Assembly (NCBI GenBank): GCA_030272155.1
Contig: CP126200.1
Coordinates: 992,001-1,056,000 of the forward strand
DNA from: Tetradesmus obliquus
Lineage: Eukaryota > Chlorophyta > Chlorophyceae > Sphaeropleales > Scenedesmaceae
Direction: 5' to 3'
Length of the DNA: 64,000 nucleotides
The notes beneath the pieces were generated by a model. That model had not been told where the DNA came from. It did no database searches and was given only the letters and a program-made list of their open reading frames with translations. The position numbers and the translations under genes are program-made. Below are positions 7,325 to 63,111 of this stretch, piece after piece (within the stretch, counting starts at the first letter, position 1; every line of letters starts with the position of its first letter).

Positions 7325-9776
7325 TCAGCTGCCACCAGCACTTGCTGCTGGTGCACTGCTGCCAGATGCCCTGCTGCTGCCATTGGCTGATGCCAGCAGC
7401 GACAAATACAACTGAATAGCTTCGCCATCCTCTGATACATCCATATCATATGCGCTCAGCGGGTCTTCCCCCTTGCCCTGCTTGCCGCGCACTGCGTTGA
7501 CCAGCTCTCCCTCCATCTCACAGTCAACGCCCTCCTCACCCGAGCTGCTGCTGCTGCTGTCCCTGCGGTCGCTGCGCCGCCTGCGCCTCCTGCCACCCTC
7601 AGGTGCAGCTTCCTCTTGTGCAGGCACTCCTGCAGCCTCCACACCTTGTGCTGCTTGTGCAGCAGCTGCTGCTGCATCTGGCTGGTCCTCCTGCATAGCC
7701 TCTGCTGCATCATCACCTGCTGCTTGCTGCTGTGAGGGGCCTGCACCAGCATCCCCACCAGCAGCTGCTGCTGCTTCGCCCCTTGCTACTGCTGCTTCTG
7801 GGTCACGAGCATCCTCCCCCATAGCCTGCACAGCCAGCAGAGGGTGCAGCACAAGCGGTCATTCATGATGCAAGCACATGCAAGCACATGTGTGATGGCA
7901 ACATGAGCGCACGCGCTTTGCACGGCTATGCGTTTTAAACAAAAAGCGCAGCATGCGTGCCACTACCTGTTATTGACAAACATTTGTACGGCCCATGGCC
8001 TTGCAGACCCTAACAACCACCAGAACCACCAGCAACAGCTGCACCTTGCAGCCACATACCTACGTCAGCTGCTCTGCACAAGCCGCACCTGCAGCTGCTC
8101 CAGAGCCCCCTCTATGCTGTTGCCTGCCGCCTTGAGCGCAATGCGTGCAGCCTTCTCTTTGAAGCCCATCGCTGTCAGCCGCCGCACACGGGAGGCCTTC
8201 ACACTCTGTGGGCCCTGCTCCTCCTCCAGCATCTGCAGCAGCCAGCATTTGAATTCTGAATTCAGAGAGCAGCACAGCTTGACAGAAGTTGCATGTGCTG
8301 CGTGTGCATGCGCGTGCACAGAGCCTCAGCCACTGGAAGCGCCAGCTGCGTGTCACGCCATGCAGGCTGCATGTGTTTGCTGCAGAGCTCGCTCTTTTGG
8401 CACAAGGGTGCCTTGCTGCTCTGGCAGCTTCACATATTCAACTCGCCAAAAACACCGCCACAGAGATAGGGGCACATGATGCAATGACTGACAACTCAAT
8501 TCAACTGATCGTTATTTGTATCACGACAAACATAGACATCATGTCTGCTGCAGGCCAAGTACAATCACACCGAACACAGCCAGCCGCCCACTGTTGCGCA
8601 ATCAGCGCCAGCTGCAGCGCGCCGCGCCGCACAGGGTCCCCGAGCTCACAACTATGACATATCAGTAACAGCAAATGATAAAAAAATCCCAACAAGCTAC
8701 CTGTTGCGCAATCAGCGCCAGCTGCAGCGCGCCGCGCCGCACAGGGTCCCCCAGCACGTCCAGCGCAGCCTGGCCGTCGTTGTCAGCAGCACGCAGCGCC
8801 TCCGCAGCCAGGCCCTTCTCATAGCCCAGCTGCAGCAGCTGCTGCAGCGGCTGCTGGTCCACAAACTTGCCGCTGGGCGTCTTGCCGTATGCCTCGCGCT
8901 CGCGCAGCCAGTCGCGCTGCTTGCAGCGTTCCGCGCGGCGCTCCTGCAAGCAGGTGGCAGGTGTGATTACAGGAGTTGAGCAGTGCGGCCGCTTCCTCAG
9001 CGGTGATTCTAGTGAAGCAGAGAAGTGCATGTAAGGTCAGGCTTGAATAGGGCACAGGCTGTACGTGTGCTGCATGTGTTCACTGCAGATAGCGCCAGTT
9101 CCAGCTGCATCCGTCACATAGAAATTCAAAAGTTCAGCGCAAGTGCTGCATGCCTAGCGCAGCGGTTGCCGTACCTGCTCTCGCTGCCGCTGCTCTGTCA
9201 GGAAGTCCACAGCGGCTGCCAGGTCACCGCCACTGAACCTTAGCGCGCGCTGCGCCTCCTGCTCAGCGTAGCCCATCTCAGCCAGCGCCAGCAGCGCGCC
9301 AGGTGACAACTGCATGCGCAAGTAGACAAACACAGTGCATGTCATATTGCGAAATGCAGCACTGTCAGCGTAGCCCAGCCAGCGCTAGGAGCGCGCCATG
9401 GGACAGCTGCATGTGCAAACACAGAAATGTAGCAAGGCGCAGGACACAGTGCAGCACTGTCAGTCCATGGCTGCATGATGTAGTTAGTGAGTCTGTTGCT
9501 GACAGCAAGCGCAGTGTGTGTACAGTAGAAGCATACAAGAGAGGCAGATGGCTATCAGCGCGCCGCACAGCATCTGCCACAGCTTCTAGCATTCATCAGT
9601 ACAGTAACAAGTCGGCTTGCAAGCCTTGCAGGGCGTAGCCTCCCCCACTCAGCAGCCTTGCGCACCTGCAGCCGCTGCCAGCGCGCCTGTGCTGCTGCCA
9701 GGTGGGCTGCTGCTGCTGATGCCTCCCCGCTGTGAAAAGCCACCACGCCCTCCAGCAGCTCCAGCCGCACATAACT

Positions 9777-9826
<50 letters not shown>

Positions 9827-12800
9827 TCAGCTATTGTTTATGCGCACTGCCCCTGCCCAGCAACTGCAGCTGAACAACCCAGCAATGGTGGCAGCAAATA
9901 ACAGGACCATAAGCTGAACTGTATGCCAGTGGTGATGTTACTGCACTAGACCTGACACGCAAAAAACACGCAGGCCTAAAGTACACGCCAAGCGATGCAA
10001 GCACATAATCTGCATACCACACTAACCCAACTGCGCTGCGCATGCATTTCAACAGCCGCCCGCAAGGGCTGCTCAGGGCTGGAGCCGTGAGGGAGCAGCT
10101 GCAGTCGAATGCTGGCCCAGGCCCCCCATAACAAACCATAAGCGTACCACAGCTGCTGCTCAACTCACATGCCTTGCTCAGGGCTCAAGCCTCCATGCAG
10201 CAGCCGCAGCCACTCCTGCTGGTGAATCCATTCACCTACGACAATCAGCACTACAGCAGCAGAAGCACTACCAGATGCCATCTCGCACTCACATGGCCTG
10301 CTCAGGGCTGAAGCCTCCATGCAGCAGCCGCAGCCGCTCTTGGTGCGGCCCATGCGCCTTTGCCAGCATGCGGCGCGCTTGCGCGAGCCGCTCACTGCAC
10401 ACACCCAGCCGGCTCACATCGCGCAGCTTGTAGCAGCACCTGGGAATGACAACCGGTGCGGTGCAAGATTTCAAACACCGGCAGAAGTCGGCTGGCATCA
10501 TTGCTGGATGTGCAGCTGTTCAGAATCGGGCAGCAAGTGCCATGACCTTGCTGGCTTTATAAGCAGCCCCAACGAGCGGTATACATCATGGCTGCGTTGC
10601 TGCAAATGCACCAGCTAACAATCAACAAGATGACTGCGTACATCCTGCTGTGCAAATTTCTGCCTGCACCAGCAGCTCACCACACGATGTCCAGCAGCAG
10701 CATGGCCAGGTTGTCCACGCCCTCCAGCACCGAGGGGCTCACCAGGCCAAAGCTCTCCTCAGCCAGCAGCAGCTCACCTAGCGCAGCCTGGCCAGCAGGC
10801 AGCAGCAGCAGCAGCAACATAATGTCAGTAGCCCTGCATTTGAAATTTCAGCCAGCAGCAGCTCACCCAGCGCAGCCTGGCCAGCAGCAGCAGCAGCAAA
10901 AGCATCAGCATCAGCAGCATCAGCAGCATCAGCAGCATCAACAAATGCTTGTTACATTGCAGCCAAAGCTCGCCTCAGCCAGCAGCAGCTCACCAGCGCA
11001 GCCTGGCCAGCAGCAGGCGAGGCACAGCAACAGCAGCAACAGCGGGCGCCTGGAAGCGTTGTGGCACTTACAAAAGACAGCCAGCAGCAATACTCTCAGC
11101 GCAACTTGGCAGTGACGCATGTGGTAGTGCATCACGTGTGTGCTGGTAAGGTTGCGTTTCACTGCCTGTTTACCCACCCACAACACACAGTGGTGTTGTC
11201 GCTGTACACCGGCTTTTCTGCGGATGCATGCCCACCACCACAGCAGGCCGGCGGAGCAGACAGCGCAATGCACCTACAGGGCGACTGCAACGCAGGTGCA
11301 ACTGCACGCTTTACTTCCACACATCACTCCTACTATGCACCACAACAACCCCACTGACAACACACCACACAGCACCACACACTGCCAGGTCTGCTTGAAC
11401 TATATGACGGCAAGACACGCCTGCAGCTCCCCTGCCTCCATGCTGGGCCTGCCCTTGTCTGCAACACCGGGCCCAACCCCAGTGTTTCGCAGAAACAGTA
11501 AGCGACTGGCACGTGCACAGCAACGCACCTGCAACTCCCCCACCATATGCTAGCTTTGCCCTCGTCATGCAGCGCCAAGCCCTCCCCCCCTCCCCTCCCC
11601 CCCCCCCCCCCACACACACACACCACACAACACAAACACACCCAGCACGTGCACAGCAACGCACCTGCAGCTCCCCTGCCTCCATGCTGGCCTTGCCCTT
11701 GTCATGCAGCGCAAGCCCCAGCACCAGGCCACGCCTGTCCCCATCAGACAGCGACAGTGCCGTGCCAGCCTGCAGGTGGGTGAAGAAGATGCAAGAGGCA
11801 GTTGAGGCGGTTGAATGCCCGGGCAAGAGCACGAGCAGCATACAGGTTTGAATAGATAAGGGTGAGCGTGGGGCCAGCAAAGCCACCAGCAGTGAACACC
11901 GCAAAGTGCTGGTGGCGCCACCACAGTAGATCCACTGCCTCGGCTTCTACAATGTGCCAGCTTCAAGAGAACCAAGCGGGGGACCGCCTTGAACAGCTTT
12001 GAGCAGCAGGGTAGCTGCGCTGGTGCATACCAGGGTTTCCATGCATGCAGCACAGTCTGGGCAATGTAGCTGCTCCGCTGTCTGCAAGCCACACTGCAGG
12101 CAGCCCCACCTGGTTCTCCAGTGAGGCCTCTTACATGCTTGCACCTTTGAACCCGACATACAAACACCTACTTTCAAAACCCCCACAACCCCCACCTGGT
12201 TCTCCAGTGAGAACTCGTATCTGTCGGTCAGGCCCCTGCCATCCCCACGCGCCGCCATGCAGTCCGCTGCTGCCTTCAGCCGCTCCAGCTTTGCTGCGCG
12301 GGCCTCCTCTGCGCCTGCTGCTGCCTCTGCACCTGCCAGTTCAGCGCTGTGCGCTGCTGCTCCTCGTGTGACGAGCAGGCGGGAGCTTGCGGTTACGTTG
12401 TATGCACGCAGCGGCTTTGCATCGTCCTGCATGCAGAATGCAATGCGGCATCATTTCATTGGATGAATTACGGTTGTGAATTCCTGATGCTGCTGAGTGG
12501 GAAGCAGCAGTTGAGTGTATGGCTGGGTGTTCAGATGCAGTGCATGGTATCCTTGCGCGCTGGCTTGGTCTGCTGGACATGTGAGTGTGCAGCCATTGCA
12601 TGTTGGTTTGGCTTTCCAATATGCCTAAACAACTGCTGGGTGGATATTGCCTGTGACTACAGCAACCTCAACCACAGCAATCATCATACTGGTGCCACAG
12701 TTGCACCTGCTGCTGCATCTTCCATGGCCAGCAGCATGCAACCTGCCATTGCCGACACACGCTCACCAGCAAGTTCCTGCCTCCTGCAATCATTTTTACG

Positions 12801-13844: not shown

Positions 13845-15398
13845 ATGTCTGCAGGCACCTTGACGGCGGCAGCGGCAGCAGCAGAACCTGGCAGCAGGCG
13901 GCGCAGACGCAAGATGTCAACAACAGAAGATGAAGTTCAGCAGCAGCGGATGCAGCAGCAGCAATCGCATAACACCCAGCCAGAGCAGGAGCAGCAGCAG
14001 CAGCAGCAACAACAACAACAACAACAACAACACAGCAGACAGCTGCTGTGGGAAACAGCAGCACAGCTAGGCCTGAAGCGAGGTTCACAGATTGCAGTAC
14101 CAGAACGGCCGGCAGCAGCAGGGCAGCTGGAAGAAGTCGATGAAGACCAAGAGGACAGCGGCAGCAGCACCGCTGCCGCCGACAACAGCAGAGAACGTAG
14201 CAGCAGGGCGAACAACAGTAGTATCAGCAGCAGGCAGGACACCTCGACCCTCCCTTGGACAGCAGACAGCAGCAGCAGCGGCAGCGACAGGGAGACATAC
14301 AGCATCAGCAGCGTGGATGATGATGATGTGTTTGCAGCTGTTGCCCGCCTGGGCCGCTTCCTGGACTTTCGGGAGCGCTGCGCCACTGAGGTGCTGGCCA
14401 AGCTGGCGGCTCTGGGGTATGATAGGGAGCTGGCGCAGCGCGTGCTGGTGGCTCTGCAGCGGGAGGTGCGTGGGCAGCGCGGTGATTGCGCAGCATGCAC
14501 AGCATGCTAACAAAGCACATGCTGCAGGCGCTGCAGCGGGAGGTGCATGGGCAGCGTGGTGATTGCGCAGCATGCACAGCATGGTGATGTGGCCCATGAC
14601 AGCATGCGAACGCAGCGCGTGCTGGTGGCGCTGCAGCTGGAGGTGCGTGGCAGCGTGGTGATTGCGCAGCATGCACAGCATGGTGATGTGGCGCATGACA
14701 GCATGCGAACGAAGCGCGTGCTGGTGGCGCTGCAGCGGGAGGTGCGTGGGCAGCGTGGTGATTGCGCAGCATGCACAGCATGGTGATGTGGCGCATGACA
14801 GCATGCGAACGAAGCGCGTGCTGGTGGCGCTGCAGCGGGAGGTGCGTGGGCAGCGTGGTGATTGCGCAGCATGCACAGCATGGTGATGTGGCGCATGACA
14901 GCATGCGGACGAAGCGCGTGCTGCAGGCGCTGCAGCGGGAGGTGCGTGGGCAGCGTGGCGATTGCGCAGCATGCACAGCATGGTGGTGTGGCGCATGACA
15001 GCATGCGAACGAAGAGCGTGCTGCAAGCGCTGCAGTGGGTGAGTGGGAAGGGTGCTGTGTCCTGTATGTGCAGCAGGCGCAGGTGTGCATGGCAGTGTAG
15101 GCTGTGACAGCCAGCTGGCATAGCGCGTGCTACAGGTGCTGCAGCGGGCGATGATTCGGTAGCTCTGTGATGTCTGCGCATGCATGCCGCGGTTGCATGG
15201 CAGTATGTGGATAGCAGTATATGGAGGTGCTGGTGGAACAATGCTAGCTCGGGAGTGGGTGTTTGGTACGAGTGCATGCTGCATGGTGTGTGGTGTTGAT
15301 GGCGCAGGGCTGGCTGCTGCCGCATTGATGCTGTTGCTGCTGTGCTGTCTTTGATGTTGTATAGCCGGATAACCTGCAGATGCCACTGCTGGTGCCGC

Positions 15399-15439
<41 letters not shown>

Positions 15440-16815
15440 ATGATGATTGCAGGGCCTGCAGAGCGACGCGCGCTTTGCCGAGATGTTTGTGCGGGGCTAC
15501 TGGAGGACCAAAGCACACTCGCCTAGCAGGCTGGCATACGTGAGCAACACACAGCACAGCAACACAGCACGGTGATTGCAGCAGCAGGCATGCAGCAGGC
15601 ATGCGCGGTTTGTGCCTCAAATGCTGCCGGCATTTGCACTTTGGGGGTCAGGGTCAGGGCGAGAGGCTACTGGAGGACCAAGGCGCACTCGCCTAGCAGG
15701 CTGGCATATTTAAGCAACACACAGCACTGTGATGGCAGCAGCAGGGCGTTAACTATGCGGCATGTGCCTGTGATGGCAGCAGCAGTGAGTGCCTGTGATG
15801 GCAGCAGCACACAGCACACAGCACTGTGATGGCAGCAGCAGGGCATCAACTATGCGGCGTGTGCCTGAGATATTGGTGGTGGGTTGAGCGTGGGGGTCAG
15901 GGTCAGGGCGAGCGGCCAGTCAGCTTGCCAGACATGTACCGGCCTCGCGCAGGGGCATGGGTAGCGGCCGCTGCAACTAATGATGCTGCTCTGGCCATGC
16001 GCTTGGCTGCTGCTGCTGTGCAGGAGCTGCGCAGCAGGCGTGTGGCGCAGCAGCACATTGATGCTGCGCTGGCGTCTGTGTTTGGGCCTGGCCGGCAGCT
16101 GCCAGACAGAGCAGAGAATGCCAGCAATGAGCAAGAGGAGGGTGAGGCGCAGCTATATCATCGTACAGTGCCAGGCATGGAGTATGTTTCAAATTGTGGA
16201 GTCTGTGCGGGCGCAAACTGTGCAGTGAGGAATGCAGCGCACTTCTACCATGTTCTGTGAATGGTGTCTGTGCAATTGTGAACATCGCTGTTGCGTGCCA
16301 CAAGCACACCTCCATGTCTGTGCTAATGTGGCTGTCGCTGCCGCTGCTGGTGCTGCTGCTGCGGGTTGTCTGTTGCTGTCTCGCCCGGCCAGAGATGTGG
16401 CAGCAGCTGGTTGAGATGTGCAGGCGTCGGGCAGAGCTCACAAGGACGGAGCCCCAGCAGAAACGCAGGTGATGAGGCTTGGACACAGCATCACTGCGGC
16501 TGAATAACAACCAGCATGCGACTGCCTGCCTGCGTTGGCACATTTACCACATGTGCTGCGCAGCACAGCAGGCGCTGTGATTGTAAGCGGACAGCAACCT
16601 ACTGGCTGCGCCTTGTGCAAAAAAAATCCGATGCATGCGTGCGGTGGTGCAGGCCTCTGATGGGGTGCGGACATGTACCAGTTGCTAATTTGCCTGCTGC
16701 TGCTGCTGCTGTTGTGCCTGCTGTTCTCTGCAGGGCAAAGCTTGCCAGCTGGCTGCAGCGCCGAGGCCACACCATGAGCACAATCTTCAGAATCTTTGAT
16801 GATGTGGGCATATAG
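13845..16815 (+). CDS. recX: RecX-family protein, probably organellar
   Basis: Five exons (13845-14465, 15453-15539, 16024-16141, 16393-16468, 16734-16815) join in phase to 327 codons. The first ~165 residues are low complexity (poly-Gln, Ser/Asp-rich) and unlike bacterial RecX. The RecX three-helix repeats follow: FRERCATEVLAKLAALGYDR with RVLVALQREGLQSDARFAEM, then RTKAHSPSRLAYELRSRRVA with QQHIDAALASVF, and finally AKLASWLQRRGHTMSTIFRI before the stop. RecX modulates RecA filaments; plant and algal forms act with organellar RecA, so plastid or mitochondrial targeting is inferred. The true N-terminus is uncertain because no in-phase transit-peptide exon was found. Intron 1 holds a tandem array of exon 1 ends, and intron 2 a copy of the exon 2 end. 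Confidence 0.85.
13985..14033 (+). repeat. CAG/CAA repeat encoding poly-Gln in RecX
   Basis: CAG and CAA codons give about 18 residues of nearly pure Gln in the low-complexity N-terminal part of the RecX protein, upstream of the conserved domain. Confidence 0.9.
14477..15045 (+). repeat. Tandem array of recX exon 1 3' ends with donors, unit about 100 bp
   Basis: The real exon 1 ends at 14465 (CTGCAGCGGGAG/GTGCGTGG). The same edge recurs with ends at about 14542, 14642, 14741, 14841, 14941 and 15038, giving spacings of 77, 100, 99, 100, 100 and 97 bp. Most copies retain GTGCGT or GTGAGT after the exon end. Each unit also repeats intron sequence (GATTGCGCAGCATGCACAGC). Confidence 0.95.
15398..15446. 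repeat. (CTG)n(GAT)n compound microsatellite before recX exon 2
   Basis: About seven CTG units are followed by about nine GAT units, ending 7 bp before the exon 2 start at 15453. It replaces the usual polypyrimidine tract. Confidence 0.95.
15661..15712 (+). repeat. Copy of the 3' end of recX exon 2
   Basis: It repeats YWRTKAHSPSRLAY (real exon end 15539) about 174 bp downstream. The donor has become ATTTAAG, so the copy is not spliceable. Confidence 0.9.
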
Positions 16816-22219: not shown

Positions 22220-25200
22220 CTACTGCTGCTGCCTGTACACGCCATTGTATGGGTTGCCGGGAGGCGGCCCCGGAATGTTCATGCCAGGCGGCGGGGGCGG
22301 CAGCCCACCTGAGGGCGGCCCTGCTGCTGCTGCTGCCATGCCAGGGGGAGCAGGAGGAGCAGGAGGGGGAGGAGGGGGGCCTCCCTGCACACCTGCTGCT
22401 GCTGCTGCTGCTGCTGGTGGCGGAGGTGGTGCCTGCCCCATGTGGCCTGGTTGTTGCGTCATCTGCTGACCAAGTGACGGCATGCCCTGCTGCATCTGAC
22501 CAGGCGGGGGAGGCGGCCCACCCATGTGGCCTGGCGGTGGGCCGGGTGGCGGCCGCATGTGCGTCATCTGCTGGCCGGGTGACGGCACCTGACCAAAGCC
22601 GCCGCCAGGTGGCCCGGGCGGCGGCTGCATACCCGGCGGCGACTGCATGTGCTGCTGCTGCTGCTGCTGCTGTGGCGAGGGGTGCAGCTGCATACCAGGA
22701 GGGCCGCCAGGTGGGGGCCCTGGCCCCATTGGAGATGGAGCTCTAGGGGGCCCTGGTGGAGGTAGCCCACCCATTTGCTGCTGCTGCTGCTGCTGCCATG
22801 GCGGGGGCGGGCCTTGCTGCTGCTGCTGCTGCCAAGGTGGCGGCGGACCTTGCGGCTGCTGCTGCTGCTGCCAGGGTGAGGCTGGGTGCTGCGGCAGCGG
22901 CTGCTGCTGCCAGGGTGCAGCCATGTGCTGTGGTGGCATGCCGTGTGGCGACGGCTGCTGCTGCCAGGGCGGTGGCGGCGCTTGGTGCGGTGACGGCTGC
23001 TGCTGCTGCTGGCCTGGTGGCGCCCCTGGGTGCATTGGCGGCGCCATTGGCGGCGGTACACCTGCAAACACAACACAGCACAGAAACAGGATCAAGGCAC
23101 TGGCTACCATAATCCCCTATGCACGAGGAGCAGTGGTTGCAGAGCACAAGGAGATGCATCAGCAATGCAGCAACACAGCCACGATCACTGCCTGCGCCAA
23201 GTCGGGCGCTCAAACGCCCAAAGCATTGCAACGCTGGTGCACTGCTGCTGCAGCCTCACCTGGCGCAGCAGGAGGCATCTGCGGGTGCTGCATCGGCGGC
23301 TGCTGCTGCATGCCAGGGGCCCCGGGTGGCGGCCTGAAGCCTGGCGGCAGTGCAGGCGGCATCGGAGGAGGCCCGGGTGGCAGCGGCATGCCTGGCGGGG
23401 AGAAAGGCCCTGCACAATTGTATGCAGGAGTGAGTATGTTTATGTGGATGACAGCAAGAAATTTGACGTAGAAGAGTTTGGCGGCGGGTGACAATCGGGG
23501 ACCCAAATGCAGATCATGCAGCAGCCCCACAGAAGCACATCCAATGTCTTGCAGCAGACAGCTAATCAACAAAACAGAGGGGCGAGTAGCAAGAAGAGCT
23601 TCAGCAAGCTCACCTGGCGGCCCTGCCATGCCTGGCGGGGGAGGTGCTCCAGCACCACCCGCAGCAGCAGCCATGAACTGCTCGTACTGCTGCTGTTGCT
23701 GCTGCTGCTGCTGCTGCACCGCCGCCACAGCCGCCGCGTTCGCTGCTGCTGCCATGGCGTTCACATTGGGCGACTGCATTGGCACGCCTGCTGCAGACAC
23801 ACTGTACGGTGCAGAGTGGGGTGCATCAGGCCCTGCAGGGGGCAGCGGAGGCGGAGGGGGTGCCCCCCCATCACCATTTGCTGCTGCTGCTGCTGCTGCT
23901 GCTGAGTGCTCCCCAAAGTCATAATCCTGATCATCGCCTGCACCACTCTTCAGCATTGGTGGCAGCGGCGGCGGCACAAACGGCGCTGCGTCATCGCCTG
24001 CTGCTGCTGCTGCTGCTGGGGGTGGCTCGTCAGGCAGCTTGGGCTGCGGGGGTGCCAGCTTGGCTGCTGGGCGGAAGATCGCCTTGCGTATGGGCAGCAG
24101 GTTGTTCTTCTTGATCAGCAGCAGGCCGGCTGGCTTCTTTTTCTCCTCCTCAGCTGGCGCTGCTGCTGGTGCTGCTGCTGACGCCTCACTAGACTCTGTT
24201 GCTGCAGCTGGCGTCTGCTCTGCGTGTGTCGTGCCATCAGCTGCTGCCGCCTCGTCCGGTTGCTGCTCAGCGCCAGGCCCTGCTGCTGCTGCTGCAGCTG
24301 GCTTGACTATGCCCTGCTCAATCAGCTGCTGCCGCGTTGGCCCCTGCATGCAGGATGCAGCAAGGCGCACGCTCGGGTTAGTGCACTGTTAAACCAAGCA
24401 GAGCAGTGGTGCACAACAAGCAATGTTGCATATCTGCATTACAGCTGACACATGCACAGTCAGATGCACATGCAGATCCACATCACGCGCCACAATGACA
24501 GCGCTGCCCACCGTGTAGTGATGCGTGGCGGGCATCACAGCTGACAAAGACACTCAAAACATACCAACGCACATGCACATGCACATGCACAGCAGCCCCG
24601 CCCCATCGCGCCACTCACCATGTAGTCTGTTGTTGGCACGAAGCCCCCGTCTAGCTCCACCAGCTGCCTGGCCAGCGCCTGCTTCGCCTCCTGCACCTCC
24701 ACCTGCAGAGGAGAGTCGTGTTTCAGTGCATTTTGAGTTGCTCGTTTGGCAGTTTTTGCATGCGTGCCCAGAAATCGATGGCCAAGGAGGCAGAAACGTT
24801 GAGCGGCCAAGTAACATGCGCGCTGCGTTACATCCGCCAGTAGGAAAGTGCTATGCAGCATACCACCCACCTGTGCGGTGATTATGCTGTCAGCATCAAT
24901 GTCCTGGCCACCCTGCTGCTCAGCCATGGCCAGTGCAGCCGCTGTTGCCACCACAGGGGCATTCTGCTGCCTGCAGCGGTGCCAGGCCACCAGCTTGGCA
25001 TTGCTGGACACTGCCTGCAGCACCAGCGAGTAGGAGGCCCGCAGGTCCGCCACCTGGAACAGCGTGCAGGCAGCACATGCGCGGCAGCGCAGCGCAAGCA
25101 GAGTGAGCAAAAGCTGGCCGGGCACAAACATATGGGGTGTGTGGAGTGTTGCAGCACCAGCGAGTATTGAGGCCCGCAGGTCTGCCACCTGGTAGCAAAA

Positions 25201-43057: not shown

Positions 43058-43095
<38 letters not shown>

Positions 43096-43719
43096 GGGGC
43101 CTGCTACTGCTAGGGCTAAGAGTTGTATGCAGGTTTCTGTGAGGTCTGGGCCTTCCGCCTGACCTGCTGCTGCTGCAGCTGCTGCTGCTGCTTGGGGCTG
43201 CTTTGGTCCGTCTAAGGCAAACATGCCTGCAACAAACAGTCAGAAAGCAGCAGTAGCAGAAGTAAGTGGGTGGCATGCAACGCAGTGCAGAGCAGGAGGC
43301 AGAGGGATGCGCAGTGCGCCTAGCGCAGTGCATGCAGACGGACCAGGCAATCAAGCACAAGATCCCGAGATAGCGAACGCTGCTGCGGGTGCCTACAGCC
43401 TGTCGGAGGCATTGCAACAGTGGCGGAGCGCAGCACACACGGGCATGCAAGCCACCCGCAACACAAGAGATCGCCAACCAAGCAGCAACTCACCCGACAG
43501 CATCAGCTGCATCAACCGAGGATGTTGCAGCGGCTGCACAGATATCACCACCTGCTGCTGCTGCTCCTGCTGTTGCTGCTGCTGCTGCGTGTGTGTGTGT
43601 ACAGCTGCAGCAGCTGCCTCAGCTGCTGCGCCACTTGAGTCAGCTGTGCTGCTGCGCGTGCTGGGTTGCTGGCGCTGCCGGCACCACCTGCTGACGACTG
43701 TGATGAGACGTGGCGCCAC

Positions 43720-44254
43720 CTGCAACAGCAGCAGGATAACGAAAAACAGGCACGCAAAACTGAACACGTGAACGACAGGTGTTGCGGCCTGATTGTGAGG
43801 TTTGGTTAATTGGTGCGCAGCAGCCGCGTGTGTTGTGCAGTGTAGCGAGGAGCTCCGCAGCAGCAGGCTGCCTGCTAGCCTTCACTACTACGGGCCACGG
43901 CAAAGGCGCATGAAACATATGACACGCTAAGCAATGCAAGCACCGCTGCGTCATCTCAACACATATGCAATGTTTGCTGCTGACATCACAAGCGATGCAG
44001 CAGTCAAGATGTTAAACCTGCTGCATTGAACACGCAGCAGGCAGCAAGACACTGCTGCATGTAGCCCAAATGTCTCTTTGCCACTGCACACGCACAACAT
44101 ATTCTTTTCTGCAACTGCTGCTCACCTGTGGGCAGTTGTTATGGAGCTGCTGGTTGCTGCGTTGCTGATGCTGCGCGCTGTCAGCACCAGGGCATGGTCA
44201 TATGGCCGACTGTTGTTGCTGCTGTTGCCATTGCTGTGGCTGCTGCTGCTGCTG

Positions 44255-47556: not shown

Positions 47557-50318
47557 GGCGGCGGCTGCATTGCATGCAGCTGTTGTTTGAAGGCTGTATG
47601 AATAGCCGTTGCACTGGATAGCAGCTCAAGCAGCAGAAGCTGCAGCTCTGTCAGCCCAGCATGCAGCAGCGATGAATCTGCGGCATTGAGGTTTTTGTAG
47701 AGGCGTAGTGCAACCTCCTTGATGTCCGTTGAGCTGCGCCATGCTAGCATGTTGTCGAGTAAGCCGTCCAAGCCTGCATGTGTTAGGCACTGTTATACAA
47801 TGGTAAAAGCGGCAAGTCTGTTCTGACTTTCAGCCCATGCAAGACAAGCCACCCGCCAACTAAACTCTACCAATGATGCCATCGCAGGCTAGGCTTGCAC
47901 CTGCTTGATTTGTATGCAACCAAATTTGCTGTACCTCTGGGCTGACAAGTTTTACAAGGCTGCCAATATCTGCAGTGCAGAGTCTCAATCCAAGCAGACA
48001 CAACAGTGCCTGCTGTAGCTGTGAGCATTCGCAGCTTGCTACGATCCAGACTGCTGCATCCGCACCTAGCTTTGAGATGCCGTCGCCCAGGCTGCTGAGC
48101 TGACAATGCAGACGCTTCACTGCGCTGCCTGCAACCATAAGGGCTTCCTGCAAACGACCCTCGTTGAGCAGGCTTGCACACAACCCCCATTCCTCAGCCC
48201 AGACGCCCGCCAAGTCAATGTCCGCCCGCCGCAGCGCGCAGCATATGTCGCTCAGCTCCTCACTGCATGCAGCGCAGCAAGCAGATGCGTGAAAATCACA
48301 GTTGAATGGATCTGGTTGGTTTGCTGCGCAGCTGCAGGCCACGTACTGCTGCTGTGCATGCTGACTGATCACCCCAAGCTTGCTGTCAAGCAGCGCTTCA
48401 GACCTAGGTATAGCAAATCGTTCTTTCTGCCAGTAGCGCTTCACCTGGTGGTGACAGCAGCCGCCCAGGTGGCAGCCAGGTCAGCCAGTGTTGACAGGAG
48501 CGCGGGTGGCGTCTGCGTGCCGCTCAACGTTGCCAACACTGACTTGCAGATGCTTGCAGCAGCAGCAGCAACAGGTGGCTCAAACTGCCCCAGGGCCGCT
48601 TCCTCTAGGAGGAATGAATTTATGGCAGCTTTCTGTGGCTCACTCGTGCCGCCAACCAGCACTAACGTGCGCAGGCTGCGCAGCTGCGTGATGACTGCCG
48701 GCCCTGCAGCTAGCACAGACGGCAGCGTGTGCCGCCTCTGTCGGACCGACTCCCCCACCTGGTCTCGCGTGTGTGACAGCGCAGCCAGGCAGTTGCAGGC
48801 ACTGATGTTCAAGTGCTGCAGTTCTACGAGCTGCCCAAACGATACTGGCAGCGCCTGCAAACTGATGCAGCGGCTGAGGTCCAGCCGCTGCAGCGCTGCA
48901 AGCTGGCCAAACGATGCTGGCAGCTCCGCCAAGCATATGCAATTGCTGAGGTCCAGTTGCCGTAGAGTAGCCAGCTGGGTAAGGAAGTCTGGCAGCACTC
49001 CAAGCGCGACGCAGCCATGCAGTTTCAGCACCTCAATCGCTGCCAGGTTGGCGCAGGACTCGGGCAGGTTTGCCATCCCACATGACAATGCCAGGTACCG
49101 CAGCTGAGGCATGTTCCAGCTGCTGAAGGGCAGTGGGAGCTGCGACAGGCCGATGCACATGACCCTGACCTGAGAGAAGTCAATGCCCTGCAGCTGCTCA
49201 TTGAAGCATGCTGCGCTGAAGGAGGCGTCTTCTTGCTTTGTGGACTTTGGAGTGGAGGTGGGTCTGCTGCTGCTGCTGCTGCCGACCTTGCCAATTAGGT
49301 AAGCAAATCTCACAGGATGTTTCTGCAGTGTTTGCAGCATGCCAGGCACTGTTGTTAGCCAAACCACCCAGCAGCAGATTCTGCACTGTGCTCCAGCAGC
49401 AGCTGTTGCGGCGTCAGGTGGGTGGGTAAGTGTGTGGGTGGGTGAAGAGCTGCTCAGATGCAAGCAACGCACATTATGTATGAAGAAAACAGTATCAAAC
49501 ACTTCTGACTCCAGCAGCACTGACAGTGCCCATGTCGGCATACCAGCGACCTGCCATGTGGGCGTGCACGGCTCTGCCAGGGCAAAGCAAACAGCTGAAT
49601 GCAACACAGCCCAACCTACGGCGTGTTGCATGAAGCAAACAAACATTCAATTCAACGATCAGCCCAGCTAATTGCTGCACTGTACGCATGCAAATGCAGC
49701 AGACCGATAACACAGTTATGTAACACCCCTTCACTACACAGAGTGGCTATGCCACTGCCAGTAAATAATCATGTATGTTCCTTCCACGACAAATCCATCA
49801 GGATGTCCTAATAACACATCCTCCATGATTTGTCTGGTCACTCCCATACACTTGCACCGTAACATAATAATTACGTTACACGGCTCTGCCAGAGCCGTGC
49901 GCGCCACATGCGGTAAGCCTGCTATAAGAACTGCCAGGGCCGCTCTACTCACCTGCTGCGCTCCCACCAGTGCGCCATCCTGCAGCCAAAGGCGACTGCC
50001 ATAGTGCGGGCTGCGCATGGAAGGGTCCAGCACGATGCTGCGCGCCAGGTCCATCAGCGCTTTGTCACCTGCCAGGTCACGCTGCTCCACCTCACCAAGC
50101 CAGTGTGCAGCTTGCTCGCCGTACAAACACTCCCATACCGGCACAAAGCTCTTCGGATCTGCAGCTGCGACCGTAGCAATGTCCAAGATGATGTTCTGCA
50201 GCCCCTCAGGCAGCTCCTCAAAAGGGTGCAGCACGTCACCCTGGTAAGCTAAGCGGCTGTGTTTTTGTCTTTCCTGCTGCCAGGCTGCTAGCGCAGCTTG
50301 CAGTGAATCAAGGCTCAT
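44833..50318 (-). CDS. LRR protein fused to a DUF900-type alpha/beta hydrolase
   Basis: Seven exons (50318-49953, 49322-48445, 48262-47871, 47773-47250, 46926-46567, 46191-45387, 45047-44833) join in phase to 1179 codons. Residues 1-122 form an unnamed helical domain (SLDSLQAALAAWQQERQKHS, LARSIVLDPSMRSPHYGSRL) shared with the LRR pseudogene at 36520-39047. Plant-type LRRs follow (LRQLDLSNCICLAELPASFG, LQRLDLSRCISLQALPVSFG), then a helical region and a poly-Gln linker. Residues ~677-1179 are a complete DUF900 hydrolase: EVFFVTDRN, LLLFIHGYNVGF, the nucleophile Ser in ITAHSMGNRVL (~851), FAAPDV, Asp in YCSRLDWAL (~1059) and His in CHGYF (~1117). The triad is thus intact. DUF900 substrates are unknown. 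A sensor-plus-enzyme role is inferred from architecture. The exon 2 start (acceptor CTGCAG/AAACATCC) is the least certain junction. Confidence 0.85.
46452..46505. repeat. CTG repeat in an intron of the LRR-hydrolase gene
   Basis: CTG/TTG units within intron 5, not in an exon. Confidence 0.9.
47506..47565 (-). repeat. CAG repeat encoding poly-Gln linker of the LRR-hydrolase
   Basis: Gln-rich linker between the helical region and the hydrolase domain. Confidence 0.9.
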
Positions 50319-51270
50319 TGTCTGTCACACCTGCAACAACACAGCAGCGGCGAGCTCAAGCAAGGCAGTAAGGAACTGGTGTGCGAAGCAGTCACCGCTC
50401 AGCGCGTGCAACCCAACCCAGCATGGTACTGTTGCAGCGGTAGAGAGCCCGAAAGCTTGACCCATGGAAAGGTCTTGGATTCCTCATAACGTTTATGCCG
50501 TGCGTACAACTAGAAAGCGGGTGAGCTCCTCGTATCAGGCGCACCTTGTGAAACGGCACAGGAGTGACTTCACCCGTCCGAGCCCGTGCCGAGACAGTGT
50601 CACAGTAGAGTTTTCTTTTTACTTCAACTTGGGCTGATCAGCTTCATGCCGCACATCCCATGGCTTGAGCTCGAACTCAAATTGCTGGTGAGAGTTCACA
50701 GCAACGCTAGCAAACCAGAACCTGTGAAGAGAATGTTTTCCTACTTCAACTTGGGCTGATCAGCTTTATGCCGCACGTCCGATGGCTTGAGCTCGAACTC
50801 GACGTGCTGGTGAGAGTTCACAGCAACGCTAGCAAACCAGAACCTGTGAAGAGGATGTCCTGTTGCAAACATATGTAGTTTCATGTTTGCCAGCAGGCAA
50901 TGTGTGGTGATTTGATGACAGCTCTTGGTGACTGTCACATGCACATGCACATCTGTGAGACTGACTGGGGTGCCTGCACGGCTCCCACACCCGCAGCATT
51001 GCAGGAACGTTCTGTCCACTTCAACATCTCACACAGCTGCTTGCTGGCCAGGTGTGATTTCAATAAGTGAAGCCACAACGAGTCACATCACAGTATCAAA
51101 CTAGTCATCCTAGAGGCGCTGCAGCCAGCTGGCAGACCAGTCCTCCTTCTACACGTTAGTCCGTTGAACCAGCTCCAGCAGCAGGTCCTCGTCCTTCCAG
51201 CTGATCGGCGGCTTCAAGCCACAAAGAGATCAACTAAAACAGCAGCAATGCAACCTCCTAAGCCCTGGCG
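50319..51270. other. Intergenic region between the LRR-hydrolase start and the NELF-C/D stop
   Basis: About 950 bp, presumably the LRR-hydrolase promoter. It contains a 122-bp tandem duplication (50617-50860). Near 51167-51200 lies a partial copy of the NELF-C/D terminal coding end (CCAGCTCCAGCAGCAGGTCC), about 115 bp from the real one. Confidence 0.6.
50617..50860. repeat. Tandem duplication, unit 122 bp, upstream of the LRR-hydrolase
   Basis: ACTTCAACTTGGGCTGATCA occurs at 50621 and 50743. Over 100 bp following each are nearly identical, including GAGAGTTCACAGCAACGCTA. Confidence 0.95.
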
Positions 51271-53865
51271 TCACTTGGCCAGCTCCAGCAGCAGGTCCTC
51301 ATCCTTCCTGCTGAGTGGCGGCAGGAAGGCCACCTCGCGGCAGCCCGCCGCAAACTGCTGCAGCATGGCGGTGTGGCTGGCCTTGAGCCGCGTGAACAGG
51401 CTGTGCTGCATCACGCGCAGCATGGAGCGCGCAAAGCTGGCAGAGTAGGGCGGCTCCACGCTCTCCAGCACCTGCAGTTGATGTATGGTGTGGCAGCAGC
51501 AGCAGCAGCAGCAACAGCGGCAGCATGAGTATTTGCACACTTGAGGGAATCGCTCTGCATCACGCGCAGCGTGGCGCGCGCAAAGCTGGCGGAGTAGGGC
51601 GGCTCCACACTCTCCGGCACCTGCAGTTGATGGAAAAAGACAAGTGGCAGCAGCAGCAGCAGCATCGTCTGTTGCATGGGGATTGGATGCATCACGCAAA
51701 GCATGCGCGCGCAAAGCTGGCACAGTAGGGCGGCTCCACACTTTCCGGCACCTTTTGTGGAATTGGGGACGGCGGCAGCGGCAGCAGCAGCATGATCTTT
51801 GAGCAGCATGGGACTGTCCCGCAGGGCGTGTGCAACGGCCGCAGACATAGCACGGCTCCACACTCTACACAGCTGCATGTCAGCAACTGCAGGCTGCTAC
51901 TGGTGTTGGAGAAATGAGTGTCAAACCCAGGTGAAGACACGCTGCTTCAGGCAGCAACACATTTGATGCTGTGGTGCCAGAGAGGCTCACCAGCTGTATG
52001 AAGTGCCGGATGAGTGAGGGGTCTGCTGTTGCCGCCCAGTCCTGTGCCATGCCCATGGCTGCGTCTGCCGCCCCGCTCACAAGCAGGCTGACCAGGAAGC
52101 CCAGCACCTTGCGCGACAGCTCGGGCCGGTTGTGGCCCAGCGCACCCAGCACGGCACGCAGCACGCCCAGCACCTGCAACCAGAAAGCATGGTGTCCAGC
52201 ACAGTGCAGACTGGAAACAAGCTTGTGGCAGCCAAACACACACCAGCAAGTTGCAGTAGCTTTCTGAAGCCGGGTGTTCTGTACATGTTGGGCAGCATGT
52301 GTCGAATCACCCTCCTGCCTCTTTTGGTCCACCCAGACGCGCAGCAGCTCACACACACTGCCCCTACCTGTGCGATGAGGCTGGGCTGCTCGCAAGCCAC
52401 CCTGTGCAGCAGCGACAGGTGGTTGGGCAGGAACGGCGCCAGCTTGTCATCACCATACGCGTTGGCATCGCTCAGCATGGCCTGCGAGTGCTGCAGCAGG
52501 CCCAGCGCGGCAATGGGCTGCTTGCACACCTGCAGCAGCATAGCAGGTGGAAGAAGCCAGACGGGCCAGCAGCTGTTGGTTGCTAGCACGACGGAAGATG
52601 CATGATGCCTTAAGGGGATGCTTGCAGGAAGCATTGCACAGCATGCGTGCAGGCTGCTTGCGGTGGTTGGGCAGGAAGGGCGCCAGCTTGTCCTCCCCAT
52701 GAGCACTCGCATCGCTCAGCATGGCCTGAGAGTGCTGCAGCAGCCCCAGCGCAGCAATCGGCTGCTTGCACACCTGCAGCAGCATAGCAGGTGGAAGAAG
52801 CCAGACGGGCCAGCAGCTGTTGGTCGCTACCACGACGAAAGATGCATGGTGCCTCAAGGGATGCTTGCAGGAAGCATTGCAGAGCATGCGTGCAGGCTGC
52901 TTGCGGTGGTTGGGCAGGAAGGGCGCCAGCTTGTCCTCCCCATAAGCATTCGCATCGCTCAGCATGGCCTGAGAGTGCTGCAGCAGCCCCAGCGCGGCAA
53001 TGGGCTGCTTGCACACCTGCAGCAGCATAGCAGGTGGAAGAAGCCAGACGGGCCAGCAGCTGTTGATCGCTACCACGACGAAAGATGCATGGTGCCTCAA
53101 GGGGATGCTTGCAGGAAGCATTGCAGAGCATGCGTGCAGGCTGCTTGCGGTGGTTGGGCAGGAAGGGAGAAGGCTTGTCATCCCCATAAGCATTTGCATC
53201 GCTCAGCATGGCCTGAGAGTGCTGCAGCAGCCCCAGCGCGGCAATGGGCTGCTTGCACACCTGCAGGGACGCAGCGCGTGTCGAGTGAACATGTGGGTGG
53301 AGCCGGCAGCTGTTGATTGACGCTTGCACGGAAACCGAGACGGCCGGAGACAAGTTGATGCTTGCAACAGCCCAAAGGGAGTGGCATTGCGTGCATGAGC
53401 AGTATAGGTTGCATCCCATGCGTGCAGGATAGGCATTGAACTTAGACAAAATGGCCTGAGAGTGCTGCAGCAGCCCCAGCGCGGCAATGGGCTGCTTGCA
53501 CACCTGCAGGGATGAAGTATCAAGCGTTAGGGTCAGGTCAGGTTAGCTGTTGTCTCATGCTTGCAGGAAAAACACATCGAAGTAGATGCTTGCAGGAAGC
53601 GCTGCAGTCCATGCGTTCAAGCTGCAACCCTCCTGCTAATGCACAACGTAGCTCTGCAGCACCCACCGCAGCAGCACACACATGCCAGCCTACCTGTGCT
53701 GCTATGTCAAGCTCTGCTGGCCCCAACTTGGCTTTAGGCCCTGACACCATCTGCGTCAGCTGCAGCGCCTGCCGCAGCAGCCTTGCAACACCCTCCACTG
53801 TAGCATGGCTCTCCACCTGCGCAACAGGACTGCTGCCTCGCTGCTGCTGCTGCTGATGGTCTTGC

Positions 53866-54077: not shown

Positions 54078-57000
54078 CATAGGTGGCATCTTGGGCACTG
54101 CAGAGCAGGAGGCAGAGGGATGCGCAGTGCGCCTAGCGCAGTGCATGCAGACAGGCCAGGCAATCAAGCAAAAGATCCAGTAGTAGCTGGCGCTGCTGCG
54201 GGTGCCCACAGCCTGCCGGAAGCATGCATTGCAACAGTGGCGGAGCACATCACACATGTGCGTGCAAGCCCCACACAACGCGACAGCGGCATACCAGCAG
54301 CAACCCACCTGACAGCATCAACTGCATCAAGCGAGGGTGCTGCAACGGCTGCACAGACAGCACCACCTGCTGTTGCTGCTGCTGCTGCTCCTGCTGTTGC
54401 GTGTACAGCTGCAGCAGCTGCAGCAGCTGCTGCGCCACCTGCGTCAGCTGTGCTGCTGCGCGTGCTGGGTTGCTGGCGCTGCCAGCACCACCTGCTGATG
54501 ACTGCGATGATGATGTGGCACCCCCTGGGCAGCAGCATCAACATTACAAGAACAGGCCGGCGTGACAACATGTGGGTGTGTAGCTGTGAGCAACAGAGCA
54601 GCCTGTCTGTATGCAGGGTGGCGTCAAAATATGCTGTGCAGAGTACGGACGAGCTTTGTCAACAGCAGACTGCCTGCTGATATACAGCCCGACAGCAGAG
54701 ATTGCATTGAAAGAAACCGCTGAGCAAGGCAAGGGCAGCTACATCATGTACTGGTAGCTGAGTGCCTACAGCTGGTGGGCTGGTGCCACATGCCATGTGC
54801 TGCATTGAGCAAGCGCGCTGATGATGCCTGTGCTTCCTGTGCAACAGCTCACAGCTCGTCAGTTAGCTCACCGCGCAGGCTTGGTGCTGTGCGTGTGAGC
54901 ACCTCCGGCACCAGCCTGTCCAGCTGAGAAAGGACAGCGCTGCTGCGCTAATACAACGCCTGAATGCTCATGTAATGCATGCACGCACCGGGCAGGCTGG
55001 GTGCTGTGCGTGTCAGTACTTCTGACACAGCCCCAGCTGAGCAGGCCAAGCCATCACCTGCGCTAGCAACTACTCGAAGCTCCCAAATGCAAGAAACTCA
55101 CCGGGCAGGCTTGGTGCTGTGCGTGTCAGCACCTCCGACACCAGCCCCAAGCGAGCAGGCCAAGCATCACTGCGCTAGCAACTACTAAATGCTCCGAAGA
55201 TGCAAATTGCAAGAAACCCACCGGGCAAGCTGGGTGCGGTGCGTGTGAGCACCTCTGACACCAGCCCCACTGCTCGCCGCTCCTCTGGGGAGGCCGATAG
55301 TGGCACCAGCAGCGGCTGCAGCAGCAGTGGCAGAAGAATCATAGCGCAAAGCAGCTCGGGAGCACGGCAGTGTAGCGGCAGACAAAGGGGCAACAAGTCC
55401 TGGCTCACTACCAATAACACCACACATGCACAGCCAGCACGCTACACCATGCAGTTCACCTGCAGCTGGGACACCTTTGCACGGCCATGCTGCGCCACAG
55501 CAGCAGCCTCCACCTCCTAACGCATGTAACCACATGCAACACCCTCAAGTAACACAGAAAGTAACAGTGTACATGACACCCCATGCCCACCTGCAGCTGG
55601 TACACCTTTGTGCCGCCATGCTGCGCCACAGCTGCTGCCTCCACCTCCTGCCCTAACCTTCTAAACACACCACCGCCCGGCCAGCTCGCAGCAGCCGCCA
55701 GCAGCTGCTGTGCGTGCACGTAGGTGTGCTGACTTGCCACGCAGGACTCTGCAATCTCTGCGGCGATCTGCGCGAGCTGCTTTGAGGTGGTTGTGCGTGC
55801 TGCTGCTGCTAAGCGTGTGGCCAGCAGCCTGTGGTAGACCTCAAAGTAGCTGGCAAGGGAGCCTCCAACAAGGGCCACCTCCTCCTCATGGCCCTGCAGG
55901 TTGTTTGAAAGCAGAGTGTACAGCAATCGCGTGTGAAGAGGTGAAGTGCAGCGGCAGCAGCCTGTGGTACACTTCAGAAGCAGCTGGCCATGGAGCCTCC
56001 CACAAGGGCCACCTCCTCCTCATGGCCTGCAAGTGGCACGCAGCGGCAAGCACGCAGCGGCAAGCGTGCATACAGAGTGAGTGCAAGAGATGGCTGCAGC
56101 GTTGCTGTTGCACCAGACCCGCGGCCTTGAAAAGCGTTTTTCCAACACCGTCCTGACATAGACGGTCGACCCCAGCCGGCTGCGCCGCAGGCCACATGAA
56201 GACACAGCACTGTTTATGCTTCCCACAACCAGCCCGTACACAGCAGCTGCACCTGCTTCAGGATGCACTGGATGGCGTAGTTGAGCAGCAGCCCACATCA
56301 AAGTTCATACAAAGCAACAACCTCAATTCAGCTTCAGTCATCACACGCACCTGCTTGAGGATGTGCTGGATGGCGTAGTTGAGCAGCAGGCTGTTGCGGT
56401 GCGCCGCGCTGAGCTCATAGATGAGTTGCCGCCCCCGCCTGTCAGCAATAAGCTCGTTGAGCCATTCCGGGTGGCCGCGCCTGAATACGCCAAGGAACCT
56501 GGCTGCATCAAAGCGCTCCTTGGCCAGCTCCTGCAGGCTTTTAACAAGTATTGTAACATAGTTGTACACTGCAACAGAATGTGACAAATCGCATGTTGAG
56601 CCACGCTGGGTGGCCGTGCCTGAACACACCAAGACACCTGGCAGCATCAAAGCGCTCCTTGGCCAGCTCCTGCAGGCGTTTGAAATGTGTTATGACATCA
56701 ACGCTTGCTACTTCACTTGAAAGTAGCTGCCTGCGGCTGCAGCTGTGCCTGCTAATGGCTGGGCAGTAGCACAGCAGGACGCTGACCAGCAGGCCTCAAC
56801 GAATCGAACAGGCACTGCTGCTGCTGCTGCTGCTGCCTTCAAACAGTTTGCAACGAGGCAGATGCCTCTCTGTGTGTGTTGTCTGCCTGCATGTGCCTCA
56901 CCGACAGCAGTGTGAACTCATCAGGCACGCCACCATCAGCATCGCCAGCAGCACCGCCACCACCTGCAGCTGCTGCACTGGAAGGCCCAGCTGCAGCCAG

Positions 57001-61784: not shown

Positions 61785-61817
<33 letters not shown>

Positions 61818-63111
61818 GCGGCATCATCATCATCATCATCAGCAGCAACATGTCGACTACTATACTCCAAGGCTGAGGAGGGCTTGCCGGCCCTTGTCAG
61901 CAGCTGCGTGCAGGCCGCTCGCTGCGCAGCTGCACCGCAAGCGACAGCGAGCTGATGACAAACCGCAAGTGACACACCACAAATGACACACCGCAAGTGA
62001 CACACCGCATGTGACACACCACAAGTGACACACCGCAAGTGACACACCACAAGTTGTTGACACACCGCAAGTGACAGCGGGCTGACGACCGCCAAATTTC
62101 ACCCGTTTGCTGCATTTGCTTTTGCTGCACACGGTGTGCTCGCCGTCCAGCTGCGGATGCACTCACTGATGCGGTTCTCGTCAAACGCTGAGCCGCGGAT
62201 GAGCACCAGCAGCTGCCTGGATACATTGGTAGTGTTAGGCCGCAACACTGCTGCTGTTGGCACTTGTGTGAATTCCTTGCCGTACATGGAGGTTATGTTG
62301 AGCACTGCCTCCAGCTTCCAGCCCACAGGCTCTGGGTACGGCTCTGCAGCGCAACAGGCACAGCACAAGGCATACACTGAGTGTTGAGCACTGCTTCTAG
62401 CTTCCAATCAGCTGGTTCAGAGTACGGCTCTGCGGGTGCAAAATGCACAGCAAGCTCGTTGTCAACTGTTCAGCAACATGACGATGCTCATAGAGCCATG
62501 GCTGCAGGCGCACGCCGTGCCTGTTACATGAGCTATAGCTCTGCGTGCAAGGGTGTTGCATCGCCACAGGTGCCTGCAGCTGCTGGCAGCTGGCAGCTGC
62601 AGCACTGCGCTGACTGTACTGGGCTCACTTGGCGTTGTTGACAGGGGGCAGGGTGCCCACCCCAGAAGGTTGAAGATTTGAGTGTACAGCCAGCTGTAGG
62701 TGGCCCCCTCGCGCTGCAGTGTGGCGTTGACTGGCAGCTGCGCGGGTAGCTTTGCCCTCCTGGCCAGGGGCTGCGGCACAAGCTGGCCTGCAGGAAAAAA
62801 CACCATATTACAATAGTTAAGCTCACATTGTGTGCTGACTAGTCAGCCAGCTGTGTGCTGCACGACGTTGAGCAGCAGCTCGTGCAGGCGCTGCTTCTGC
62901 TCAACTTCCCGCATGCTTGCTGGAAGGGGTAGCGCTTACCTCTGGTGTTGTAGAGCGCCGGAGGTGGTTGTTCTGGAGTGGAGCAGAATGGATCAGGTCG
63001 GACGTCCACAGCATCTGTTTGCAGGAGAGCCAAGCACAGCACAGCCAGCAGCAGCAGCAAGCACTGCTGTTTGAAGGTTGCGAGCAGCGCTGCAGCGCCT
63101 GCGATTGCCAT
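60264..63111 (-). CDS. Secreted class-3 lipase
   Basis: Six exons (63111-62940, 62787-62629, 62343-62167, 61782-61559, 61213-61016, 60704-60264) join in phase to 456 codons. The start MAIAGAAALLATFKQQCLLL plus LLAVLCLALLQTDAV is a signal peptide, so the enzyme probably enters the secretory pathway. The lipase_3 fold is visible: RQLLVLIRGSAFDENR (beta strand and oxyanion region), GLIHRGYYKASEQLW, and the nucleophile elbow VLFAGHSMGGGLGTLLAA with the catalytic Ser. The region KPLVSLVGFAACNAGNPAFA with FNKRVNARLVDFEFDRVRK corresponds to the strand carrying the acid residue. The final exon has several Cys and ends PPYAIAAVYPTTPAYP. Substrate (triacylglycerol, phospholipid or galactolipid) cannot be told. 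Intron 2 carries a copy of the exon 3 start and intron 3 a minisatellite. Confidence 0.85.
61787..61845. repeat. (CAG)n/(CAT)n compound microsatellite before lipase exon 4
   Basis: Plus strand CAG units, then GGCGG, then CAT units. It abuts the exon 4 acceptor (CTGTAG) at 61783-61788, as in recX intron 1. Confidence 0.92.
61930..62085. repeat. Minisatellite GTGACACACCGCAA in lipase intron 3
   Basis: About eight to ten units of 14-15 bp alternating CCGCAA and CCACAA versions. Confidence 0.93.
62380..62440 (-). repeat. Copy of the acceptor/5' part of lipase exon 3
   Basis: GCAG/AGCCGTACTCTGAACCAGC reads PYSEPADWKLEAVLN, against PYPEPVGWKLEAVLN in the real exon from 62343. Offset about 90 bp. 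Confidence 0.92.

Follow-up and report, generated by a model that had tools for sequence, protein, structure and literature searches.

What has placed so many copies of exon edges, splice signals included, in the introns of one stretch of a green algal genome? The stretch, hereafter the window, is 64,000 nucleotides (nt) of Tetradesmus obliquus DNA (assembly GCA_030272155.1, contig CP126200.1, positions 992,001 to 1,056,000), for which the original prediction was that introns had grown by repeated tandem duplication across splice junctions. Our results confirm that exon-edge copies are spread over the sampled genome, rather than being local to the window, and reveal that most cases with two copies resemble exon edges from which the intron half is missing. 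The new point is one of shape, i.e. copied sequence breaks off close to the splice signal, and does so more abruptly than expected from ordinary tandem duplication with subsequent decay.

Sample, gene models and repeat scan

The genome comprises 104,662,953 bases in 17 contigs, the window being part of contig C10; a published table gives 104.70 Mb, 17 pieces and 56.5% GC for the assembly (PMC12571836). Our sample totals 264 kb, made up of the window and 20 ten-kb pieces from elsewhere (at least one per contig, with names like L012). Exon edges are the predictions of a small gene finder trained on this genome (window and 20 pieces), which learned the consensus sequences CAG/GTGNG for donors and TGCAG/G for acceptors. 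The gene finder is adequate for statistics, with some edges misplaced and some copies accepted as exons: the true exon start near 31507 is probably ~19 nt earlier (by eye), and comparison with the T. obliquus protein P0001 shows that a predicted 57-nt 'intron' (near 53760-53816) is coding sequence and that a predicted 'donor' (near 51274) is a stop codon. Direct repeats were collected by an exhaustive ungapped scan (offsets 40-419 base pairs (bp), low complexity masked). Clusters were built from segments with offsets of 300 or less and classed by their smallest strong offset, with the consequence that the exon-edge copy of L002:9632-9834 is filed as intron-only.

Distribution of exon-edge copies

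The scan gave 319 direct-repeat segments, compared with none in one Markov-resampled control, and 101 clusters, 54 of them consisting of a single segment. The window holds 28 clusters, 20 of exon-edge type; by class, 18 have a predicted junction inside the block, two run from exon to intron without a junction, three are intron-only, three exon-internal and two intergenic. Gapped BLAST added two window pairs outside the cluster list (25016/25150 and 9270/9367). The predicted number of at least 20 duplicated exon edges in the window is thus reproduced by a fixed rule, and alignments contain both of the anticipated kinds, namely downstream copies of an exon end with its donor and upstream copies of an acceptor with the exon start, the copies ranging, as had been described, from near-identical (98%, 8591/8701) to decayed (~71%, 9270/9367). 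What did not hold is that the density is special to this window: exon-edge clusters occur at 0.31 per kb in the window versus 0.26 per kb in the other 200 kb, where 52 of 73 clusters are at exon edges. The density is uneven, with exon-edge clusters in 12 of the 20 pieces and no cluster of any type in L004, L009 and L010; at least one cluster is present in 18 of the 21 sequences (the window and 17 pieces).

All of these are direct repeats; no separated inverted pair was found within 700 bp, all 20 rows of at least 45 bits being self-palindromic single places. Introns without a copy have a median length of 201 nt (n = 243), and those with one exon-edge copy a mean of 345 nt (n = 13, a small set biased to long introns).

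Excess of repeats at splice junctions

When the repeats were rotated 400 times over the gene models, a junction was expected inside 44.4 of the 101 clusters (standard deviation (sd) 4.2, maximum 55), compared with 65 observed; for the single-segment clusters the corresponding values are 17.7 (sd 3.3, maximum 27) and 29 of 54. The junction excess is therefore real but moderate. Block ends also lie close to junctions, being at -3 to +12 nt in 27 of 48 pairings (not all independent) versus 26% under rotation (p = 9e-6). For exons of at least 40 nt, repeat coverage is ~22% across the terminal 40 nt of the exon, compared with 9-12% at a point 20 nt inside the intron (362 donors, 364 acceptors), with 3.8% for intergenic sequence. 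It had been cautioned that exon edges may merely be where copies are recognisable. The rotation, together with the failure of simulated neutral decay to yield the observed shape (see below), argues against this, but the caution retains some force in that the excess is only ~1.5-fold, and geometry and selection may explain part of it, since the exon stays intact when a duplicated unit spans a single junction.

The predicted clustering of offsets at about 80-145 bp is upheld across the sample, the 63 clusters with offsets of 75-175 bp having a mean of 124.8 bp (sd 20.1). A second group of junction clusters, at 231-267 bp, was considered as a distinct class near 250 bp, a proposal we abandoned because several of its members are arrays whose middle copy a BLAST filter had missed; part of the group belongs to arrays, and the 244-bp array at 52409 is without an inner period (by eye). 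Among 67 junction clusters, offsets leave remainders of 0, 1 and 2 on division by three in the ratio 16:24:27, a weak deficit of multiples of three on which we do not rely. The offsets of exon-internal tandem repeats are multiples of three in 6/6 clusters, e.g. L003:1060-1179, L008:3834-4117 and window 48794-48996.

Shape of the two-copy pairs

The main count was restricted to two-copy clusters with offsets of 75-175 bp. Of the 31 clusters of this type, 18 were retained as having a junction on the same side, blocks at least 0.8 identical and sufficient flank; exon identity reached 0.85 or more in 14 of the 18. Similarity beyond the block, on the intron side of the pair, was scored as z, and was without significance in 12 of the 14 at a cut-off of z < 3 and in nine at z < 2. 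Age does not explain the missing flank similarity, since at exon identities of at least 0.92 the proportion is 7/8 (z < 3); dropping a case at a stop codon (51162) leaves 11/13 (z < 3). The ratio of block to offset is lower in two-copy junction pairs than in two-copy intron or intergenic pairs (21 vs 9, p = 0.014), i.e. the junction pairs are not complete abutting tandem units.

These proportions were compared with simulations of duplication, decay and exon constraint, made for the donor side with assumed rates and passed through the same detection. Tandem duplication with neutral decay gave 3-7% exon-only pairs at z < 3 and 2% at z < 2, and is rejected in its simple form because the observed proportions are so much higher. 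Allowing introns to change three times faster raised the figure to 48-52% (z < 3), and adding selective retention, with the spare copy changing at 0.2 times and introns at 2-3 times the rate, gave 60-74% (z < 3; p = 0.06-0.25 for 12/14). When copying was confined to the exon edge and a further 8 nt, the proportions were 96-97% (z < 3) and 86% (z < 2). The simulations do not clearly separate the selective model from exon-limited copying. With respect to the proposal of intron growth by tandem duplication across junctions, the data support local duplication that lengthens introns and leaves decoy splice sites, but the form in which a complete unit is duplicated and then decays neutrally is unsupported, the intron half being unrecognisable in most two-copy cases.

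Arrays and spacers

Arrays of at least three copies differ from the pairs in having complete inner units, and they alone, e.g. 14413-15204 and 52409-53512, have the three or more head-to-tail copies by which a minisatellite is defined; the two-copy pairs do not. In some three-copy arrays the order is copy-spacer-copy-spacer-copy and the outer flank shows little match, even where the copies themselves are ~90% or more identical (L012:3392-3693); in the array at L018:7480-7805 the outer flank match fades after ~20 nt. Arrays of this order would result if the first two copies underwent unequal exchange.

Six of eight listed spacers each find only themselves in the genome (very common words skipped; two CTG-rich spacers left out), and no spacer family was found among 54 spacers in the 264 kb, cross-locus matches being few and short. 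The intron comparison described below for the truncated NELF-C/D gene suggests that the spacers may be new sequence.

Counted by codon position, differences between exon and copy stand at 32:32:115 for pairs with a single exonic copy and at 44:46:71 for pairs in which both copies carry an exon label. The former exceeds the neutral third-position share (1:1:2), which hints at some constraint or at mutation bias.

A separate observation concerns L012:2595-2960, where a whole 80-nt exon occurs three times, with splice signals at each occurrence and 48-nt spacers between them; all three encode nearly the same peptide, which may be helicase-like. As 80 is not a multiple of three, the three copies could act as interchangeable exons.

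Possible origins of the copies

We tentatively favour a process in which exon edges are copied locally, ending at splice signals, and are later amplified into arrays, while holding it at rather less than an even chance. The stretch copied would extend from within the exon to slightly beyond the splice motif (median ~11 nt of intron), and the copy would land tens of bases into the adjoining intron, so leaving the real junction and the nearest intron sequence intact and being removed with the intron. The two matching blocks, ~125 bp apart, would then permit unequal exchange, by which the spacer plus copy is amplified into arrays, and the copies would decay over time. Such copying would presumably be templated by repair or replication switching, and the copies are presumably mostly neutral and skipped in splicing. 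Several results weigh against such exon-limited copying. Of the 12 exon-only pairs, three have z values of 2.3-2.8, one (51162) sits at a stop codon and another (31370) has a misplaced junction, and at z < 2 simulated selective retention (56-60%) fits the observed 9/14 equally well. When 37 pairs were taken on wider criteria, similarity continued past the block in 11 (z > 2 vs cross-locus flanks), and the 37 as a whole differ from the cross-locus flank controls (p = 3e-5); the statement that all long-gap pairs are without intron similarity is too strong, and both kinds of event, exon-limited and ordinary tandem, have probably occurred. The offset is steadier than randomly re-paired sums of block length and gap (sd 19.7 vs 23.7, p = 0.017, n = 49; p = 0.064 for two-copy pairs), which favours a tandem unit. 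In the truncated NELF gene it is the outer intron piece that resembles the other gene's whole intron (z 4.9), the spacers showing no such resemblance (z 0.2 and -1.2); this one case, with a weak alignment, is better explained by a new spacer than by insertion of a copy into a pre-existing intron. A bolder version, which we consider unlikely, is that splice signals themselves mark where local copying starts or stops, for example if nascent-RNA hybrids, bound splicing factors or exon-positioned nucleosomes determine where repair synthesis ends; introns would then grow in a manner coupled to splicing, with the newest copies beside the exon.

It is possible, if somewhat doubtful, that ordinary ~125-bp tandem duplication occurs everywhere, that units spanning one junction are tolerated, an intact exon being left outside the spare copy, and that the spare exon edge is selected, for splicing or regulated mis-splicing, as its intron half rapidly decays. 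The constancy of the offset, the residual intron similarity in 11 of the 37 pairs, the codon-position differences and the simulated proportions are all consistent with this, but it requires strong constraint on the copies and fast introns together; moreover, the cleanest copy (8591, 98%) is without a donor GT, some copies have one-base gaps (55822, 25016), and in four arrays spacers and exon copies have diverged similarly, by ~10% and 8% (rough values, by eye). Were the duplications to decay neutrally, with edges conspicuous only through the conserved real exon, the modest junction excess, the same-size repeats found in introns and between genes, and the geometric advantage of units crossing one junction would all follow; the 2-7% of exon-only pairs that this predicts, against 12/14 (z < 3) or 9/14 (z < 2) observed, make it decidedly unlikely. 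Copies flanking a spacer are also what would be left by a mobile intron-like element that generated a long target duplication on entering an exon close to a junction; as the spacer searches, with six spacers in the genome and 54 in the 264 kb, yielded no relatives, we rejected a mobile-element origin of the spacers and regard the explanation as very improbable. Misassembly can create short nearby repeats, but the graded divergence (from 2% to ~30%), the respect for frame of in-exon offsets and the presence of clusters in 18 of 21 sequences leave an artefact with hardly any credibility.

Comparison with known routes of intron change

In tandem genomic duplication, as described in the accessible parts of PMC3443670 and, for a potato RdRp gene, PMC4974935, duplication of an exonic AGGT makes a new intron. 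The likeness is that a short local duplication yields duplicated splice sites within a gene; the difference is that here existing (predicted) introns seem to gain spare exon edges, whereas that process builds a new intron. Insertions made during double-strand break repair are likewise flanked by direct repeats (PMC3443670 and PMC4202315, in the text available); those repeats are described as short, whereas ours are blocks of ~30-140 bp tending to end at a splice motif. Flanking repeats are seen in our case; as to an empty site, the single paralogue comparison, with truncated NELF-C/D, is ambiguous. Direct repeats at exon-intron borders are also the subject of Rogers and Bendich (2025), who, in the available portion of their paper, report repeats of 4-30 bp (mean 11.4 bp) near the splice sites of 213 introns from many taxa and read them as insertion marks (PMC11782384); the copies described here are long, have a preferred offset and come from one genome. 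Introners, too, populate introns genome-wide, but copy themselves into many genes (available text of PMC9860276), whereas the tested spacers are single-copy (six self-only in the genome, no family at multiple loci among the 54 in 264 kb). Among the literature matches listed (titles and abstract openings, with subscription journals thinly covered), we found no description of exon-edge copies in T. obliquus or its order.

The lengthening of introns and the origin of decoy or alternative splice sites are usually inferred from rare old events. If 101 clusters per 264 kb is representative of all 104.7 Mb, the genome would contain tens of thousands of clusters differing widely in age, and, as T. obliquus has several sequenced strains, the birth, splicing and decay of duplicated junctions would be directly observable. 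Should the abrupt ending close to the splice motif be confirmed, it would connect splicing with the mutation of introns or with selection acting on them.

The NELF-C/D gene and its truncated copy

P0001 has a TH1 domain and matches the NELF-C/D exons of the window, the eight exon matches being 93-100% identical. It differs from the window gene at some residues, and so comes from another sequence. The gene and its truncated copy are on the minus strand. In NELF-C/D, single copies comprise an exon end plus gtg (55454-55649, offset 131, 90% over 62 nt, flank z 0.8), an exon end plus gtgc placed downstream (56241-56389, offset 98, 93% over 43 nt, flank z 1.6), an exon start placed upstream (55822-56027, offset 133, 90% over 73 columns, flank z 2.8) and an acceptor plus exon start placed upstream (56452-56698, offset 139, 85% over 104 nt, flank z -0.1). 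Exon-end copies spaced by 113-120 bp occupy 54860-55269; one exon has three starts, i.e. the real one and two others (51403-51798, offsets 149 and 131), with a further decayed one by eye; and the array with period 244 at 52409-53512 contains, for one exon, four additional starts, of which the outermost is incomplete (Tandem Repeats Finder (TRF), tblastn). The end of the last coding exon is copied past the stop codon (51162-51322, offset 110, 91% over 44 nt), where P0001 ends and there is no splice junction.

By eye, P0001 holds each duplicated segment once, and in tblastn its best match is the copy contiguous with the rest of the exon. For NELF-C/D, P0001 thus gives no support for the copies being used as coding sequence, with the proviso that it is a different sequence from the window gene. 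We found no evidence for new introns or a changed protein, NELF-C/D being checked only against P0001, for which copies in the source DNA are not known.

The truncated copy (40855-43760) has an acceptor plus 70 nt of exon copied upstream (41171-41388, offset 146, 88% over 72 nt, flank z 2.3), an exon end plus donor present twice (41646-41987, offset 220, 82% over 117 nt), and, for a further exon, two additional starts besides the real one, with a period of ~132, where the full-length gene has a single start (42014-42331). At the amino-acid level its last exon matches the T. obliquus protein with 100% identity, while differing in DNA from the other gene, and this truncated copy, which is without the N-terminal part, therefore seems, from sequence comparison, to be under purifying selection. 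Concerted evolution was considered and discarded, since by eye the truncated gene's exon differs by 9 from its own spare copy and by 6 from the other gene's exon.

Other loci in the window

A Pfam scan of hand-joined translations of the window genes identified Rad10/ERCC1, the RecX second domain and a class 3 lipase; for the NUB1 candidate it returned only UBA domains. In the NUB1 candidate (minus strand) the last 55 nt of an exon (8701-8755) are copied into the next intron (8591-8645; feature 8586-8755, offset 110, gap 55), the match (54/55 identical) ending at the exon end with an intron flank z of -0.5. The same gene has an exon end plus gtgagt copied downstream (10163-10345, offset 124, 90% over 59 nt, flank z 0.2), an exon end plus donor with two more copies (11415-11742, offsets 136 and 244; alignments and cluster scan), and an old near-complete tandem pair of acceptor plus exon start (9270-9463, offset 97, 71% over 99 columns).

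In the RecX-domain gene (plus strand) an array of ~5.5 copies with a 100-bp period lies beside an exon end (14413-15204; TRF and alignments), and an exon end plus 18 nt of intron is copied downstream (15489-15727, offset 170, 92% over 63 nt); with a flank z of 10.8 the latter is one of two pairs with identity of at least 0.85 that retain intron similarity. The presence of the second three-helix RecX domain (PF02631) in a nuclear algal gene, at 15461-16141, is an observation in its own right. ERCC1 (plus strand), with its Rad10 domain, has an acceptor region plus exon start copied upstream (31370-31560, offset 133, 93% over 54 nt) and an array of copies of the exon with the helix-hairpin-helix start (32388-32932; alignments and cluster scan). 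Upstream copies are also present in two minus-strand genes, i.e. ccag plus exon start in the RS-rich gene (25016-25192, offset 134, 93% over 43 columns) and acceptor plus exon start in the class 3 lipase (Lipase_3; 62296-62452, offset 86, 79% over 71 columns).

For comparison, near-complete intergenic tandem pairs occur at 3852-4030 (offset 97, 88% over 82 nt) and 34755-34958 (offset 110, 81% over 97 columns), and a complete tandem pair off predicted exon edges lies on the minus strand at 50612-50858 (offset 122, 94% over 117 nt). Two near-perfect palindromes, of 42 and 52 bp, are close together at 1723-1823.

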